This document shows, piece by piece, positions 57,670-64,000 of a stretch of 64,000 bases of DNA. The notes beneath the pieces were generated by a model, which searched no databases, was not told the DNA's origin, and saw nothing but the letters and a program-made list of their open reading frames with translations. Every line of letters starts with the position of its first letter. Within the stretch, counting starts at the first letter, position 1. Position numbers and translations under genes: made by a program. The DNA is from Lysobacter sp. MMG2 (GTDB taxonomy: Bacteria; Pseudomonadota; Gammaproteobacteria; Xanthomonadales; Xanthomonadaceae): positions 124,001 to 188,000 of the forward strand of contig NZ_JAERQY020000005.1 of NCBI RefSeq assembly GCF_016735495.2, given 5' to 3'.

Positions 57670-58221
57670 TTACTTCGCCGGCGCGCTGCCCGGCGGGAAG
57701 TCGGCGAACATCTTGTCGACGCCGGCCTGCGCCTTGGCGTTCACCTGCTCCGGCGAATCCGGCACCGTACCCGACGCCGTGCCGCGCCAGATCGCCTGCT
57801 TGGTCTTCATGTCGAACATGTCCACGACGAGCGTGCCGACCTCGTAGTTGCGCACGGTCGTGGTCGCCGAGCCCATGCCGACGCCGCCGCCCCAGCGGCC
57901 CCAACCGTAACCGCCCCAGGCCGGACCGCTGTAGAAGGTATCCAGCGTTTGTTGCTGCTGCGTGGCGACGTGCGCGGCGATGCCGACATCGGCGTCGGTG
58001 CCGCTGGTCTGCTGCCAGCCGTGCGCGGCCAGCTTGGCATCGATGGCGGCGACGACGCGCTGCTCCACCAGCGGCGAACGGCCTTCGGGCTTCTTCAACC
58101 AGGTGTAGGTGCGGTAACTGGAGAACGGCGTGCCCGGATCGTAGTCGGTGTGCACGGTGGGTGTGCTGGCGCAACCGGCCAGCGCAACCAGCAGGACCGC
58201 GCTCGAGACGAGGTGCTTCAT
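57670..58221 (-). CDS. DUF4136 lipoprotein
   Basis: A 183-residue lipoprotein with lipobox L-A-G-C (Cys17) and the DUF4136 pattern: S-S-Y-R-T-Y-T-W-L, V-V-A-A-I-D-A-K-L-A-A-H-G-W, D-V-G-I-A-A-H-V, a glycine/tryptophan-rich loop (W-G-G-Y-G-W-G-R-W-G-G-G) and T-L-V-V-D-M-F-D-M-K-T-K-Q-A-I-W-R-G. These are common envelope lipoproteins of unknown function. Confidence 0.92.
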   Translation of the reverse strand: MKHLVSSAVLLVALAGCASTPTVHTDYDPGTPFSSYRTYTWLKKPEGRSPLVEQRVVAAIDAKLAAHGWQQTSGTDADVGIAAHVATQQQQTLDTFYSGPAWGGYGWGRWGGGVGMGSATTTVRNYEVGTLVVDMFDMKTKQAIWRGTASGTVPDSPEQVNAKAQAGVDKMFADFPPGSAPAK

Positions 58222-58526: not shown

Positions 58527-60005
58527 TCAGAACGAAATCGGCACGCGCGCCGTCAACGTCATGTCCGGCGTGTCACGCGTGACGCCCACGCCCAACGCCA
58601 CGTTCAACGACCAGCGTTCGCTGAAGCGGTACGTGCCGCCCAGCAACAGCGTGCCCAGCGTGATGCGCACCGAGCCCGGCGAATCACGGCCGTTCTGCTT
58701 CGTCTTGCCGATCAGGCTGGTGTCGTAGCCCAGGCTGATGGACGCCTTCTCGTTGAGCGCCAGGCCCAGGCCGAGGTTGAAGCCCCAGATGTCGCCGGCC
58801 TGCACATCGCCGAGGAATTCCTGTTCGCGGCCGAGCACGGTGCGCGACACATTGCTGCGCTCGAAGTTGTAGAGGTAGCTGAAGGTGCCGAAGAACACGA
58901 CCGGATCGGACGGATACAACCAGGTCACGCCGGGCTGGAGGGATTCGAAACCCGTGCCCGTGGGCAGCTCCAGCGGCAGGCCCGTGCCGGTGGCGTTCTG
59001 GATGCAGCGTTGCACGCAGTCGGTGGTGACTTCGAACAGATCCTTGCCGGTGCGGCTCTTGTAGCGGAGCCAGCCGATGTAGAACGCCTTGTCCGGACCG
59101 CCGCGATTGAGCTGGTAGCGCGCGGTGGCCTCGATGTCGCCCATGCCGTCGCCGTGCGCGTTGAACACGCGGTCCTGCGCGCTGCCGGTGAAGATCTCGC
59201 GGCTGACGGTATCGCCGTTGAGATAGACGTAAGGAACCTTGGCTTCCAATTCGAAACGCCCGCCGATGCCCATGCGGCCGGTGATCGTGGCCACGCCCGA
59301 GGTGGTCTTCACCTGGCGCACGTCGATCAGGCCGATCAGGATCGCCGGGATCACGGTGAAGCCGACCAGGGCGACACGATCGTTCGCGGAATAGCCGTAT
59401 TGCAGCGAGGGTTCGAGGATGAACTGGCCCGCCGGCGTGAGCACGCCGGGCTGGTCGAAGATCTGCGCCACTTCCGGCGGGCGCGTCGCCGATTCCGGCG
59501 CCTGCCCGACTGGTTGCCGCTGCTGCTGTTGTTGCTGCTGCTGTTGTTGCTGTTGCGGTTGTTGCGCCTGCTGCGGCTGCGCCTGCGCCACCGGCGCCTG
59601 CGAGGCCGCGGGAGCCTGCGTCTGCTGCGCGAGCGAAGGCAGGACGGTGCCCGGCGCTGCGCCGGCGCCGCGTTCGGTCGCCAGGCGTTCCTCGTCGACC
59701 ACGCGCTGCAGGTTCGCCAGCGCCTGTTCCTGTTGCGCGACGGACTGCCGGAGTTCTTCCAGGCGGCGCGTCTGTGCGTTGATCTCACGCTGCAGATCGT
59801 CGAGCGACGTCTGCGCTGCGGCGGGCGCGGCGGGCGCGACCGTCGCGGGCGGTGTCGCCGAAGGAACCCCGCCCACCTGAGGCTGCGCGGCCGGCCGGGC
59901 CGGCCCCAGTCCCTGCCACTGGTCCTGCGCCTGGGCCGCCGCGGCGGCGGCGAGCCACAGGCATGGAACGAGCATCAGGCGGCGGGGCAATTGCGTCCTT
60001 CTCAT
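58527..60005 (-). CDS. FapF-like outer-membrane beta-barrel with coiled coil and polyglutamine
   Basis: A 492-residue exported protein, last gene of a five-gene operon. After the signal peptide (A-A-A-A-A-Q-A-Q) come a coiled coil (about 65-115: L-D-D-L-Q-R-E-I-N-A-Q-T-R-R-L-E-E-L), a Gln-rich linker with a run of twelve glutamines, and from about residue 190 a beta-barrel with alternating strands ending V-P-I-S-F, the terminal Phe used for outer-membrane insertion. This order of signal, coiled coil, linker and barrel is that of FapF, the pore of Pseudomonas functional amyloid. The ATG 60005 follows AAGGA. Similarity to FapF is inferred from layout only. Confidence 0.85.
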   Translation of the reverse strand: MRRTQLPRRLMLVPCLWLAAAAAAQAQDQWQGLGPARPAAQPQVGGVPSATPPATVAPAAPAAAQTSLDDLQREINAQTRRLEELRQSVAQQEQALANLQRVVDEERLATERGAGAAPGTVLPSLAQQTQAPAASQAPVAQAQPQQAQQPQQQQQQQQQQQQRQPVGQAPESATRPPEVAQIFDQPGVLTPAGQFILEPSLQYGYSANDRVALVGFTVIPAILIGLIDVRQVKTTSGVATITGRMGIGGRFELEAKVPYVYLNGDTVSREIFTGSAQDRVFNAHGDGMGDIEATARYQLNRGGPDKAFYIGWLRYKSRTGKDLFEVTTDCVQRCIQNATGTGLPLELPTGTGFESLQPGVTWLYPSDPVVFFGTFSYLYNFERSNVSRTVLGREQEFLGDVQAGDIWGFNLGLGLALNEKASISLGYDTSLIGKTKQNGRDSPGSVRITLGTLLLGGTYRFSERWSLNVALGVGVTRDTPDMTLTARVPISF

Positions 60006-60068
60006 GCGGCGTCCTTCTGGTGTGACCGGGGGAGGGTCCATCCGGTTACAACGCAATCCGGCGCGACA

Positions 60069-60569
60069 TCAGGGCGCGGTGGCGGTCACCATCGCGTTCT
60101 GCAGCGCCGTCTGGGTGTTCAGATCCTGGAATGCGCCGAGCGTGTCCACGCCGACGTTCACGGTGGTGAGCGCGCGGATGTCCTGGCCGTCGAGCGTGTT
60201 CTGGATCAGCACGCCATTGAGGTTGCCGGCCTGCTCGAACGTGTTGCCGCCGCCCACCTGCACGACCATGCCGCGGTTGAAGCGTTCAAGCTGCTGCGCC
60301 TGCTCGGTGGTCATGCGGCCCACGTCGGGAATCTGCACGCGCGTGGTCGCCATCAGTTCGCCGTTGACGTATACGGCGCGCTCGATACCGAACGACAGCG
60401 CCGTGCCGTCGCCGGTCATGAAGCCGCCGCGCATGTCGTCGAGCAATGCGGGGTCGATCGCCACCCACTCCGGCCCCAGCGCGTTCGCCGTCTGCGGCGG
60501 CGCGGCCAGCGCGGGCGCGCACGTCATCAGCGTCGCGACGATGAGGAATTTCAGCGAAGGCGAGTCCAT
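60069..60569 (-). CDS. Small exported protein with D-M-R-G-G motif (B)
   Basis: A 166-residue protein with a signal peptide (A-L-A-A). At residues 39-49 it carries D-P-A-L-L-D-D-M-R-G-G, the same motif as protein A of the operon, followed by F-M-T-G. This looks like a double-glycine leader cleavage site for the C39 peptidase encoded 13 bases upstream. The rest is Asn/Gln-containing and repetitive at the end: G-N-L-N-G-V-L-I-Q-N-T, then T-Q-T-A-L-Q-N-A-M. Ribosome binding site GGAGGGGG precedes the ATG. Probable fibre subunit, adaptor or nucleator. Confidence 0.8.
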   Translation of the reverse strand: MDSPSLKFLIVATLMTCAPALAAPPQTANALGPEWVAIDPALLDDMRGGFMTGDGTALSFGIERAVYVNGELMATTRVQIPDVGRMTTEQAQQLERFNRGMVVQVGGGNTFEQAGNLNGVLIQNTLDGQDIRALTTVNVGVDTLGAFQDLNTQTALQNAMVTATAP

Positions 60570-60582
60570 GGTTCCCCCTCCT

Positions 60583-61284
60583 TCAGATGTCGCCCGGGCC
60601 ACGCCGGGGCGTCACGATGTTGTAGAGGCTGTCGCGCGCGATGCCCGCATCCAGCGGTGCAGGCGGCGCCGTGCGCCAGTCGCGCGGCATGTTGAATTGC
60701 GCCAGGTCGCGACGGTTGTGCACCACGAACAGGATGCGGTTGTCCCACAGTTTCTCGAAGCGCGAGCGCGGCATCGCACGCGTGCCACGCGCGGGATCGC
60801 CGAGCAGCACGCGCCCGTTCTTGTAGCCTTTCACCACCACGAAATGGCGGTAGCCACGGTCGTTGAGCAGCACGATCGCCGGCAGCCCTTCCTGGATGAG
60901 TTTGTCCAGCGGCTGCTCGAAGCCATCGGCCTCGAAACCCAGTGACCGCAGGTAGCGGCGCATGTCCAGCAGCGAGAATCCGCGTTGGCGGATCTTCGCC
61001 TGGTCGCCGGTCTGGTACATGTGCAGGAACACTTCCTGCTCCGTGACCGCGTGGCCGTACTGGTAGGTCAGCAGCGTCGCGGTCGCAGCAGAGCCGCAGC
61101 TGAAGTCGTACTGCTGCGGGATGGTGGTCTTGAAGCGCGCCTCCTTCAGGCTCGTCACTTTCAGGGCGTAGTTGCCGCCCGGTGGCGCGCGCACATCCAC
61201 GGTCCCGGCCTGCACCAGGCCGGAAATGAGGATCCACGCCGATGCCGTCAGCCAAGCCCGGCGCCGGAGTGGCCGCAGGCTCAT
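60583..61284 (-). CDS. Periplasmic-type C39 cysteine peptidase (FapD-like)
   Basis: A 233-residue peptidase with an N-terminal hydrophobic signal. The C39 signature is complete: oxyanion Gln in I-P-Q-Q-Y-D-F-S-C-G-S (catalytic Cys63), His147 in Y-R-H-F-V-V-V-K-G-Y and Asp163 in L-L-G-D-P-A-R-G. No ABC transporter domains are attached, so as in FapD it acts alone in the periplasm. Its start overlaps the stop of the preceding gene (ATGA), so protein A and the peptidase are translationally coupled. The likely substrates are the two D-M-R-G-G proteins. Confidence 0.93.
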   Translation of the reverse strand: MSLRPLRRRAWLTASAWILISGLVQAGTVDVRAPPGGNYALKVTSLKEARFKTTIPQQYDFSCGSAATATLLTYQYGHAVTEQEVFLHMYQTGDQAKIRQRGFSLLDMRRYLRSLGFEADGFEQPLDKLIQEGLPAIVLLNDRGYRHFVVVKGYKNGRVLLGDPARGTRAMPRSRFEKLWDNRILFVVHNRRDLAQFNMPRDWRTAPPAPLDAGIARDSLYNIVTPRRGPGDI

Positions 61285-61691
61285 GGGCCCGCTTCCGCGA
61301 ACTTCACGTTCACGATCATCGCGTTCTGGATCAGCACGTTCGCGCCGGTGTTCTGGATCACCGTGTTGATGCCGCTGGCGCTGTCGAACGAACCGGCAAC
61401 CGAGTTGCTGCCGGAAAGCACGTCGACGGCGATCGCGTCTTCGACGCGTCCGTTGACGAGGATGTCGTTGTCGACGATCTCCGCGCCGCCGCGCATGTCG
61501 GCCAGCGCGCCTGGATCGACGGCCGAGCCGAACACCGCGTCCTGCGGTGTTGCGTCGATCACGGCCGGAGTTACTTCGATGACCGGTTGGACCACCACCT
61601 CGGGTGCCTGCTGTGCGCAGGCCATGCCTGACGCAAGGCACGCGAGGACAGCCACCAGTCCGCTCAATGCGATGGAACGTTTGCGTTGCAT
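61281..61691 (-). CDS. Small exported protein with D-M-R-G-G motif (A)
   Basis: A 136-residue protein with a signal peptide (A-C-L-A-S-G-M-A-C-A). Residues 59-69 read D-P-G-A-L-A-D-M-R-G-G, nearly the same as in protein B. After it come I-L-V-N-G-R-V and an amyloid-like tail G-I-N-T-V-I-Q-N-T-G-A-N-V-L-I-Q-N, which resembles the very C-terminus of the glycine-rich protein. ATG 61691 is chosen because AAGGAG is seven bases before it; another ATG six bases upstream is too close to that site. Stop overlaps the C39 start. Confidence 0.82.
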   Translation of the reverse strand: MQRKRSIALSGLVAVLACLASGMACAQQAPEVVVQPVIEVTPAVIDATPQDAVFGSAVDPGALADMRGGAEIVDNDILVNGRVEDAIAVDVLSGSNSVAGSFDSASGINTVIQNTGANVLIQNAMIVNVKFAEAGP

Positions 61692-61820
61692 CGTCATGCT
61701 CCTTGCCCGATCGCTCCGCGTCTTGCGTGATGTCCCGCCGGCGATCGCCGCCGGCGGGAACACGTTTGCGCGACAACGTACCGGAGGCCCGAGGGTCCCC
61801 GGCACGTCGTGAGGAGCGCG

Positions 61821-63140
61821 TTACGGGCCTACGGACAGGTTGGCCTGGACAGTGACACCCTGCTGGATCAGCGAGGAGAAGCCACTGTTCTGCGCCGCGA
61901 CGGTGATGCCTGCCGCGCCACTTGCCGTACCGGTCATCGTCGACGACATGTTGAACGTGCCTGCATCGGCCGTGTTGGTGCCACCGGCACCACCCGCACC
62001 GCCAGTCGCGCCGTTGCCGACGCCACCGTTGCCCACGCCTCCATTGCCGTCACCGCCGCCGCCGCCGGCACCGCCGGCTGCACCGACCGCGCCGCCCGCA
62101 CCGGCCGCGCCGTTACCGGCAGTGGCCGAGCCGTTGGTCGCACTGGCGTCCGCATCGCCGTTGGTGGCTGCGCCACCGGCGCCGCCGCCGCCCGCACTTG
62201 CGGTCACGGTGCCGCTCGCGCCGCCGTCACCCGCGGTCGCGCCGGACGTGCCGGTGCCTGCGCCGGAGGTTGCGGTCGAGGTCGAGCTCGAGGTCGAGCT
62301 CGGCGCACCGCCTGCACCGCCCGCGCCACCGGTACCGGTGCCGCCTGCGCCGCCTGCGCCGCCCGTGCCGTCGTTGCCGGCATCGTTGCCGCCACCGCCG
62401 CCACCGCCGTCGTTACCGCCTGCGCCGCCACCGCCGCCGCCATCGCTGCCGCCGGCCAGCGAGCCGGAGCCCGAAGCCGAGCCGGCCAGGCTTGCGCCGC
62501 CAGCATCGCCGCTGTCGTTGTCGGCATCGCCGCCACGGCCGCTGTAGACGTCATAAACGTCGCCGCCACGGCCGCCGCGTCCTGCGGTCGCATCGCCGAT
62601 GCTCGCGTCACCAGAGGTCGCGCTGCCGTTCTCGGCCGAACCGCCGCTGCCGCCGCTGCCGCCGTTGCCGCCGTTGCCGCCGTCACCGCCGTCGCCGCCG
62701 CCGCCGCCGTTGCCTTCACCGCCCCAGCCGCCGCCGCCGTACCCTGCGCCGCCCTTGCCACCGTGACCACCGTTCGCACCGCCGTTGTTGGTGGCGATGT
62801 TGCCGATGCCATAGGTCGCCACGTCGGAGACCGAGCCTTCCAGCTTGGTCAGCGCGGTGATGTGGCTGGAAGTCTTGCTGAAGGTCGAAGAGTCGGTATA
62901 GGTGTTGGTGGCGGTGCCACCGCTGTGTGCTGCGGCTGAGCCGGCGTCGGCGCTTGCGTCGCCGTCGTTGCCGCGGTTGTCGCCACTTTCGGTAGTGGTG
63001 CTGTTATCGGAGTTGTCGGCGGCGGTGAATACATCGTCACCGTCACCGCCGTCACCGTTCGTCTGTTGTGCCATCGCTTGGCCGCCGAGACCAAGGGCGA
63101 GGAGCACTGCCGTTGCCATCAAGCTGGTACGAATGCGCAT
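61821..63140 (-). CDS. Secreted glycine-rich repetitive protein, candidate fibre subunit
   Basis: A 439-residue protein with a signal peptide (M-A-T-A-V-L-L-A-L-G-L-G-G-Q-A-M-A-Q). The mature chain starts with an Asp/Asn/Ser-rich acidic stretch, then a hydrophobic-spaced segment (I-T-A-L-T-K-L-E-G-S-V-S-D-V-A-T-Y-G), then about 300 residues dominated by Gly, Asp, Asn, Ala and Ser in G-G-x and G-G-x-G-G-x arrays. The C-terminus (G-I-T-V-A-A-Q-N-S-G-F-S-S-L-I-Q-Q) resembles the tail of protein A. AAAGGAG precedes the ATG. It heads the operon and is probably the major secreted product. Confidence 0.82.
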   Translation of the reverse strand: MRIRTSLMATAVLLALGLGGQAMAQQTNGDGGDGDDVFTAADNSDNSTTTESGDNRGNDGDASADAGSAAAHSGGTATNTYTDSSTFSKTSSHITALTKLEGSVSDVATYGIGNIATNNGGANGGHGGKGGAGYGGGGWGGEGNGGGGGDGGDGGNGGNGGSGGSGGSAENGSATSGDASIGDATAGRGGRGGDVYDVYSGRGGDADNDSGDAGGASLAGSASGSGSLAGGSDGGGGGGAGGNDGGGGGGGNDAGNDGTGGAGGAGGTGTGGAGGAGGAPSSTSSSTSTATSGAGTGTSGATAGDGGASGTVTASAGGGGAGGAATNGDADASATNGSATAGNGAAGAGGAVGAAGGAGGGGGDGNGGVGNGGVGNGATGGAGGAGGTNTADAGTFNMSSTMTGTASGAAGITVAAQNSGFSSLIQQGVTVQANLSVGP

Positions 63141-63583: not shown

Positions 63584-64000
63584 TCACGCTCCACCGCTCA
63601 CATCCCCGTCACGTCGGGCAGCATCGCGAAGCGCGCGCAGGCGATCGAGTTTCTCCTTGAGCTTGATCTCCAGGCCGCGCTCGACGGGCTCGTAGTACAC
63701 GCGTTCGCCCATCGCATCAGGAAAGCCAGTCTGCCCTAGCGCGATGCCGCCTTCCGCGTCGTGGTCGTACTGATAGCCCTTCGCGTAGCCCAGTTGCTTC
63801 ATCAGCCGCGTGGGCGCGTTGCGCAGGTGCAGCGGAACCTCCTGCGTCCCGTACGCCTGCACGTCGGCACGCGCGGCGTTGTACGCGGCGTACACCGCGT
63901 TCGACTTCGCGGTGCTCGCCAGATACACGACGACCTGCGCGAGCGCGAGCTCGCCTTCGGGGCTGCCGAGTCGCTCGAACGTGTCCCATGCTTCCAGCGC
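63584..64000 (-). CDS. rarA: Replication-associated recombination protein RarA, 5' part outside window
   Basis: The C-terminal 138 residues of an AAA+ ATPase of the RarA/MgsA family, which acts at stalled replication forks. The frame is open at the window edge. Recognisable are G-S-P-E-G-E-L-A-L-A-Q, Y-L-A-S-T-A-K-S-N-A-V-Y-A-A-Y, V-P-L-H-L-R-N-A-P-T-R-L-M-K-Q-L-G-Y-A-K-G-Y and E-R-V-Y-Y-E-P-V-E-R-G-L-E-I-K-L-K-E-K-L. The ATPase core would be to the right of the window. Highly secure from this conserved C-terminal domain. Confidence 0.95.
   Translation of the reverse strand, partial: ALEAWDTFERLGSPEGELALAQVVVYLASTAKSNAVYAAYNAARADVQAYGTQEVPLHLRNAPTRLMKQLGYAKGYQYDHDAEGGIALGQTGFPDAMGERVYYEPVERGLEIKLKEKLDRLRALRDAARRDGDVSGGA

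Follow-up and report, generated by a model that had tools for sequence, protein, structure and literature searches.

The Fap amyloid system of Pseudomonas (fapABCDEF) includes exported subunits encoded upstream of a signal-bearing C39 peptidase, FapD, a coiled-coil outer-membrane barrel, FapF, and FapE, whose gene lies between those of the latter two. FapD resides in the periplasm, and the secretion of FapC depends on its active cysteine; mass spectrometry does not show the N-terminus of FapE, and the linker of FapF may be processed, while the target of FapD, in the words of the same 2017 paper, “remains unclear” and the Fap proteins were given there as lacking canonical C39 sites (PMC5557850). 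A double-glycine in FapF was noted in a 2016 review (PMC5135000), and FapE and FapF have been suspected as FapD substrates (PMC5135000, PMC7764130, PMC12822426), with FapD described in 2020 as possibly cleaving FapF (PMC7764130) and in 2025 as thought to process both FapE and FapF (PMC12822426). Here we describe a five-gene operon from a 64,000-nucleotide stretch of Lysobacter sp. MMG2 (contig NZ_JAERQY020000005.1, positions 124,001 to 188,000; hereafter the window), which looks like a far-diverged relative of this system and probably works like it. Our preferred reading, to which we give a probability of about 0.65, is that the operon belongs to a divergent sister lineage of Fap exporting a surface fibre.

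The operon consists of the following genes, with coordinates of the window used throughout:

g1, 61821–63140 (from 63140 to 61821), minus strand: 439 aa, exported glycine-rich protein, proposed main subunit in the FapC position
g2, 61281–61697, minus strand: small exported double-glycine protein with a FapB-like C-terminus, 137 aa from the second ATG
g3, 60583–61284, minus strand: 233 aa, signal-bearing C39 peptidase, FapD/FilB relative
g4, 60069–60569, minus strand: 166 aa, exported double-glycine protein, putative remote FapE homologue
g5, 58527–60005, minus strand: 492 aa, coiled coil followed by a FapF-type outer-membrane barrel

The five leftward genes lie where a preliminary description of the window had placed them and with the spacing given there, namely 129 bases between g1 and g2, a 4-base overlap of g2 and g3, 13 bases between g3 and g4 and 63 between g4 and g5, and the D-M-R-G-G motif reported for both small proteins was found in each. 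The g2 gene may start at ATG 61691 or at ATG 61697 and runs to 61281. All five products have a hydrophobic signal-like N-terminal stretch, as judged by eye, and the exported subunits upstream of the peptidase as well as the D-E-F order are shared with Fap.

The peptidase and the barrel proved to be relatives of FapD and FapF, as had been proposed, according to hidden Markov models (HMMs) for both and, in the case of the barrel, also to solved-structure sequences and a fold search. Pfam gives only C39 models for g3 (Peptidase_C39, E-value 3.8e-23), and the NCBIfam FapD model matches it at 2.2e-41 with 141.6 bits, under the equivalog cut-off of 330; a classical-type FapD from Lysobacteraceae, scoring 209.7 bits, likewise stays under this cut-off. 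The FilB model from the putative Fil pilus of Acinetobacter matches no better (1.2e-40, 139.7 bits, cut-off 475). Residues Q57, C63, H147 and D163 (window numbering) are invariant in 24 classical, 78 window-kind and 13 distant peptidase rows. The possibility that g3 is a C39 exporter of the ATP-binding cassette (ABC) type, a peptidase-containing ABC transporter (PCAT), was ruled out, as the protein has only 233 aa and no ABC transporter part.

The barrel matches the NCBIfam FapF model at 3.7e-43 with 147.9 bits, not reaching the equivalog cut-off of 700, and its best solved structures in PDB by sequence are those of FapF (2.2e-26 for the single sequence and 1.7e-33 as a profile). Its predicted model, with a mean predicted local distance difference test (pLDDT) score of 67.5, contains a helix at residues 65–113, a low-confidence region at 114–186 and then the barrel. 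The comparison of this model with FapF, which had been suggested in the preliminary description, placed FapF chains in all top 18 positions of the fold search with template-modelling scores (TM-scores) of 0.75–0.84 by target length, followed by a COG4313 channel. A generic porin or phenol-uptake channel is thereby ruled out, the Pfam Phenol_MetA_deg match (1.8e-6) being also far below that of FapF. The Fil system resembles the operon in its C39 peptidase, nearly equal to FapD by model, and in a distantly related barrel, but, in a comparison by models, g5 gives 35.5 bits with FilC (6.8e-9, residues 346–490 only, cut-off of 630 not reached) against 147.9 with FapF, and g1, g2 and g4 have no credible NCBIfam match. 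Two further features of g5 were observed: a long glutamine run in the disordered linker (approximately window 59510–59566), and a DCxxRC stretch at residues 329–334 with two cysteines in a barrel loop, invariant across 29 aligned sequences.

Two kinds of locus can be distinguished in the same family. The FapF model found 33 matches with 322–389 bits, 31 with 125–162 bits, two with 20–25 bits and none between 162 and 322 bits in 149 same-family genomes, with the window's kind represented by the group of 125–162 bits; both kinds occur together in 11 of the 149 genomes by our own count. Out of the 33 high-scoring loci 12 were fetched, and all 12 contain the peptidase and the barrel and are fap-like; the FapB to FapF proteins of three of them (L053, L057 and L060) are recognised by the NCBIfam Fap models, here too with scores under the cut-offs. 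Among the classical fap loci of Lysobacteraceae, L057–L059 and L061–L063 have two or three adjacent FapC-like genes.

All 31 low-scoring loci were fetched as well, and the order g1-g2-g3-g4-g5 is kept in every one of them, although in L030 and L040 the contig breaks off within g1, of which just the C-terminal part could be identified. When species genomes were scanned, 475 stretches matched the pattern, of which 445 encode a barrel relative, and in the best 80 of the matches, which were examined and are called titled loci below (their genomes overlap with the same-family set), all five genes stand in order on one strand in 76. The five genes are thus conserved together, as the preliminary description had supposed, and their arrangement goes beyond a chance one. 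The titled loci come from Lysobacter, Luteimonas, Pseudoxanthomonas, Dyella, Luteibacter, Rhodanobacter, Fulvimonas, Mizugakiibacter, Cupriavidus, Ralstonia, Paraburkholderia and Burkholderia, as well as from unclassified bins. The loci L140 and L153, from Paraburkholderia and Burkholderia species, are complete but have the barrel gene on the opposite strand, converging on g1–g4, and in L124 and L145 genes are missing at apparent contig ends. L140 also contains two g1-like genes.

In a class-wide search, the barrel profile matched at E ≤ 0.001 in 48 of 369 genomes, many of the matches being weak. Of 15 distant loci, 13 possess g3, g4 and the barrel, L187 has the barrel only and L192 belongs with the classical loci. 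In the trees of the peptidase (55 rows) and the barrel (53 rows), the window's kind being represented by 17 and 18 rows respectively (the window itself, together with 16 of the 80 titled loci in the first tree and 17 in the second), a single branch with 100/100 support parts the classical sequences, including L192, from the window's kind and its distant relatives; long branches meet there according to the tool's warning, and Fil proteins were left out. The window's kind differs from Fap in standing on a separate branch in both trees.

The subunits are less easily placed. No credible match was found for g1, g2 and g4 in Pfam and NCBIfam (best E-values 0.018 and 0.028 and none at E ≤ 1, respectively), and none of them matches the NCBIfam FapB or FapC models at E ≤ 1; as no three-repeat FapB or FapC was found in the operon, which is a further difference from Fap, we do not count it among the members of the Fap system. 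Profile–profile comparisons were performed with hhalign against classical sets from Lysobacteraceae and other Gammaproteobacteria, with no Pseudomonas fap sequence among them, and with 60 or 100 column shuffles as a control. The g4 profile matched FapE with a probability of 91.8 (E 7.5e-7, 0/60 shuffles as good), although the FapE HMM itself gave no match, and the protein, which occupies the FapE position, is by this comparison a remote FapE homologue. The g2 profile matched FapB (53, E 1.3e-4), FapE (56, E 1.1e-4) and, more strongly, g4 (96.4, E 1.2e-9), each with 0/60 shuffles as good, but its match to whole FapC was not significant (2/60). In the PDB profile search g4 had one match at E 0.48 and g2 none, and the predicted model of g4 is poor (pLDDT 57.7).

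A C-terminal unit connects the two proposed fibre proteins:

g1 conserved C-terminal unit, 61824–61970, minus strand: homologous to the g2 C-terminus by hhalign
g2 C-terminal Fap-repeat-like unit, 61284–61415, minus strand: identified by hhalign against FapB and against the FapB/FapC repeats

The first set of sequences gave a probability of 89.7 for g2 against the g1 C-terminus (E 1.9e-6, 0/60 shuffles), and with more sequences the two C-termini matched at 97.3 (E 1.7e-11, 0/100). When the g2 C-terminus was compared with 78 FapB/FapC repeats, an E-value of 5.5e-4 was obtained with 0/100 shuffles as good. There is thus moderate support for the g2 C-terminus being one Fap-repeat-like unit, which g1 would have in common with g2. 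The preliminary description had the subunits as different from FapB and FapC, and this stands as far as the absence of matches to the FapB, FapC and FapE models and to Pfam goes, but has to be qualified by the remote FapE homology of g4 and by the repeat-like unit of g2 and g1.

The rest of g1 is variable in composition. Glycine makes up 12–34% of the whole open reading frame (ORF) in 29 uncut same-family copies (median 28%) and 11–36% in 73 copies from the titled loci, a set overlapping with the former (median 29%), and in this the main subunit of the window's kind differs from that of Fap; among the eight distant loci in which g1 could be scored, however, seven have 3–9% glycine and 12–28% asparagine, and only L178 is glycine-rich. 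L180, with a cut g1 of 71 aa, and L186, where the g2 model fits better, were left out of this comparison. The glycine-rich nature of the subunit, named in the preliminary description, is therefore not a defining feature of the group.

An alternative to the fibre reading is that the operon exports a non-amyloid, hydrated and gel-like glycine- or asparagine-rich surface polymer or adhesin, the asparagine/glutamine-bearing C-terminal unit serving as an export or anchoring signal only. In favour of this, g1 is mostly a low-complexity spacer switching between glycine-rich and asparagine-rich forms with only short conserved blocks, and each subunit has one repeat-like unit compared with three imperfect repeats in FapC (PMC12392863). 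Nevertheless, the unit is common to g1 and g2 and that of g2 resembles the Fap repeat, while the linkers of FapC, too, vary widely in length (PMC12392863), so that we consider a gel-like polymer unlikely, though deserving of attention.

Further evidence for the fibre-exporting sister lineage comes from a motif found in three of the five proteins. Double-glycine leaders recognised by C39 peptidases have a consensus with leucine at −7, a hydrophobic residue at −4 and glycines at −2 and −1. The candidate sites in the operon are:

g2 motif L-A-D-M-R-G-G, 61485–61505, minus strand: proposed C39 site, from motif conservation
g4 motif L-D-D-M-R-G-G, 60423–60443, minus strand: proposed C39 site, from motif conservation
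g5 motif L-A-T-E-R-G-A-G, 59661–59684, minus strand: proposed third C39 site, residues 108–115, at the end of the predicted helix 65–113

In g2 and g4 the site, LxxΦ(R/S/T)GG with Φ for a hydrophobic residue, comes after the signal stretch, and in the barrel LxxxR(G/A) stands at the end of the coiled coil; all patterns were set after inspection, and the related sequences counted are not independent. In non-redundant sets, [LM]xxxxGG is present in 86/86 g2 and 83/86 g4 proteins, and [LM]xxx[RST]GG in 85/86 g2 (0.9 expected when the same stretch is shuffled) and in 82/86 g4 (3.0 expected), where two of the three misses come from ORFs that had been called too short, at MRGG, and the third from a contig edge. 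One of the residues M, L, I and V occupies position −4 in 74 of 86 g2 and 71 of 83 motif-bearing g4 proteins, and in 12 g2 proteins from Rhodanobacteraceae the residue ahead of GG is serine, threonine or tyrosine. Within the 64-kb window, [LM]xx[MLIV][RST]GG occurs in 6 of 284 ORFs of at least 90 aa, g2 and g4 being among the six. The RGG is kept in 13/13 g4 proteins of the distant loci, and in the weak g4 model a short helix at residues 40–46 leads into the motif. The D-M-R-G-G motif, which the preliminary description gave for two of the putative subunits, is more readily understood as a peptidase site than as a feature setting apart a new type of subunit. The ORF of the g4 homologue in the distant locus L191 (7472–8683) is 403 aa long, with an apparent long coiled-coil stretch ahead of the RGG site.

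The double-glycine spacing together with a C39 peptidase could also point to export of a processed peptide, either a bacteriocin or a signal peptide, by analogy with C39 ABC transporters, with which g3 shares the catalytic residues and the sites share the L(−7), hydrophobic(−4), GG(−2,−1) spacing. This is highly improbable, since g3 is a peptidase domain only, with a signal-like start and no ABC transporter part, each product has its own signal-like start ahead of the site, the partner is a FapF-type outer-membrane pore encoded in the same gene group, and g4 and g2 resemble FapE and FapB.

As for the barrel, L...R[GA] was found in 89 of 90 non-redundant sequences compared with 16.4 ± 3.6 expected, the sole miss (L025) having methionine for leucine; the match in L034 lies inside the coil, which leaves at most 88 at the coil end, this placement being judged by eye for the remaining barrels. 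The strict LxxxRGG is present in 24/90 (0.4 expected), and a stricter pattern applied first, L...RG.G, in 21/78 (0.4 expected), with 12 barrels unanchored. In two distant relatives, L189 (6212–7405) and L191 (6187–7446), the barrel itself carries LxxxRGG near the N-terminus.

If the peptidase matured g2 and g4 only, the barrel motif would be an uncut helix cap or linker feature, and the lack of a conserved second glycine in most barrels speaks for this. Yet L...R[GA] is present far above expectation and lies at the helix end in the window protein, and cutting of FapF by FapD has been suspected in print (PMC5557850, PMC7764130, PMC12822426). An uncut barrel is quite possible, though in our opinion doubtful. 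What is new here is one conserved candidate site across all three kinds of protein, namely g2, g4 and the barrel.

A matching pattern is seen in the classical systems, where [LM]xxx[RST]G[RK][FY] was found in 22 of 22 FapE proteins (0.0 expected), 15 of them with arginine before the glycine; L069, L071 and L075 were excluded as copies or near-copies. Compared with Fap, the window's kind has glycine in the site where classical FapE has arginine or lysine, and its g2 bears a double-glycine site as well. For classical FapF, where 20 rows were found and 16 counted (L055 and L068, whose N-terminal region could not be cut out, and the duplicates L069 and L071 being excluded), a shared site is not claimed: xG(R/K) near the coil end was seen by eye in 13/16, partly in another register.

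Several results weigh against the sister-lineage reading and the shared site. The subunits g1, g2 and g4 fail the FapB, FapC and FapE models in a direct search, the match of g2 to the Fap repeats has a probability of only 30%, and that of the g1 C-terminus to the repeats is not significant, with 5/100 shuffles as good. The RGG is found in only one of 10 distant g2 proteins (L178), most of the others having RGx or RAx, so not every g2 has a double glycine. For the barrel, the pattern L...R[GA] was chosen post hoc, after the sequences had been inspected, and the strict motif is present in only 3 of 16 classical FapF proteins, in one of which (L072) it lies inside the coil. Finally, the scores of g3 for FapD and FilB are almost equal, with no Fil sequences in the trees.

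For the fibre-exporting sister lineage the following mechanism, based on the published Fap model (PMC5557850), is proposed. All five products would be exported via the general secretory (Sec) pathway, and g3, acting in the periplasm, would trim the N-terminal leaders from g2 and g4, cutting behind a helix that terminates in LxxΦRGG. It would probably also cut g5 at the junction of the coiled coil and the linker, thereby freeing or gating the FapF-like pore, which would then pass g1 and the mature forms of g2 and g4. Outside the cell, g1, as the main subunit with a long low-complexity spacer and the conserved asparagine/glutamine C-terminal unit, would assemble with g2, a short subunit or nucleator bearing the same unit, into a fibre which may be amyloid, and g4 would act like FapE.

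A wider proposal, which we hold tentatively and at somewhat short of even odds, is that these loci represent a second large Fap-type lineage. In it, the amyloid repeat would be reduced to a single unit at the C-terminus, the body of the fibre would be a low-complexity chain that may be glycine- or asparagine-rich interchangeably, and two subunits as well as the export pore would be matured by a single periplasmic C39 peptidase at a common LxxΦR(G/A)x site, the same rule giving the FapD site in classical FapE.

On the flanks of the operon, the upstream neighbour (63587–64000, minus strand) has an MgsA_C domain at the C-terminal end of its product, and the next gene downstream on the same strand (57673–58221, minus strand) encodes a DUF4136 protein. 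No FapA-sized gene was seen in the operon, with no FapA model run, and on this strand the ORFs that separate g1 from the upstream MgsA_C-type gene do not exceed 95 aa; fapA is often missing in accepted fap operons. The promoter scan of the locus found none, and there was one terminator-like site, fewer than in shuffled sequences.

No description of this gene combination turned up among the top-ranked results of a literature search, in agreement with the preliminary description, which had put it forward as a candidate undescribed system; subscription papers and preprints were outside the scope of the search, and its result is not proof of absence. Related observations have been made: the FapD and FapF models were found by Dueholm in 2013 to match larger families outside fap operons (PMC3792158), and fapD-fapF neighbours in five other phyla were mentioned in a 2018 review (PMC6173800). 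A 2025 review describes Fap operons as highly conserved and the number of repeats as three almost without exception (PMC12822426). It was also demanded in the surveys of 2025 that FapB/FapC repeats be found near other fap genes (PMC12392863, PMC12822426), and for the survey of that review we infer that the lineage of the window would be missed under this demand.

The substrate and the site of FapD have been an open question since 2017 (PMC5557850), and the candidate motif would make this question easy to test. With a near-canonical double-glycine site in this operon and a matching motif in 22 of 22 classical FapE proteins, the FapD site is now a specific prediction.

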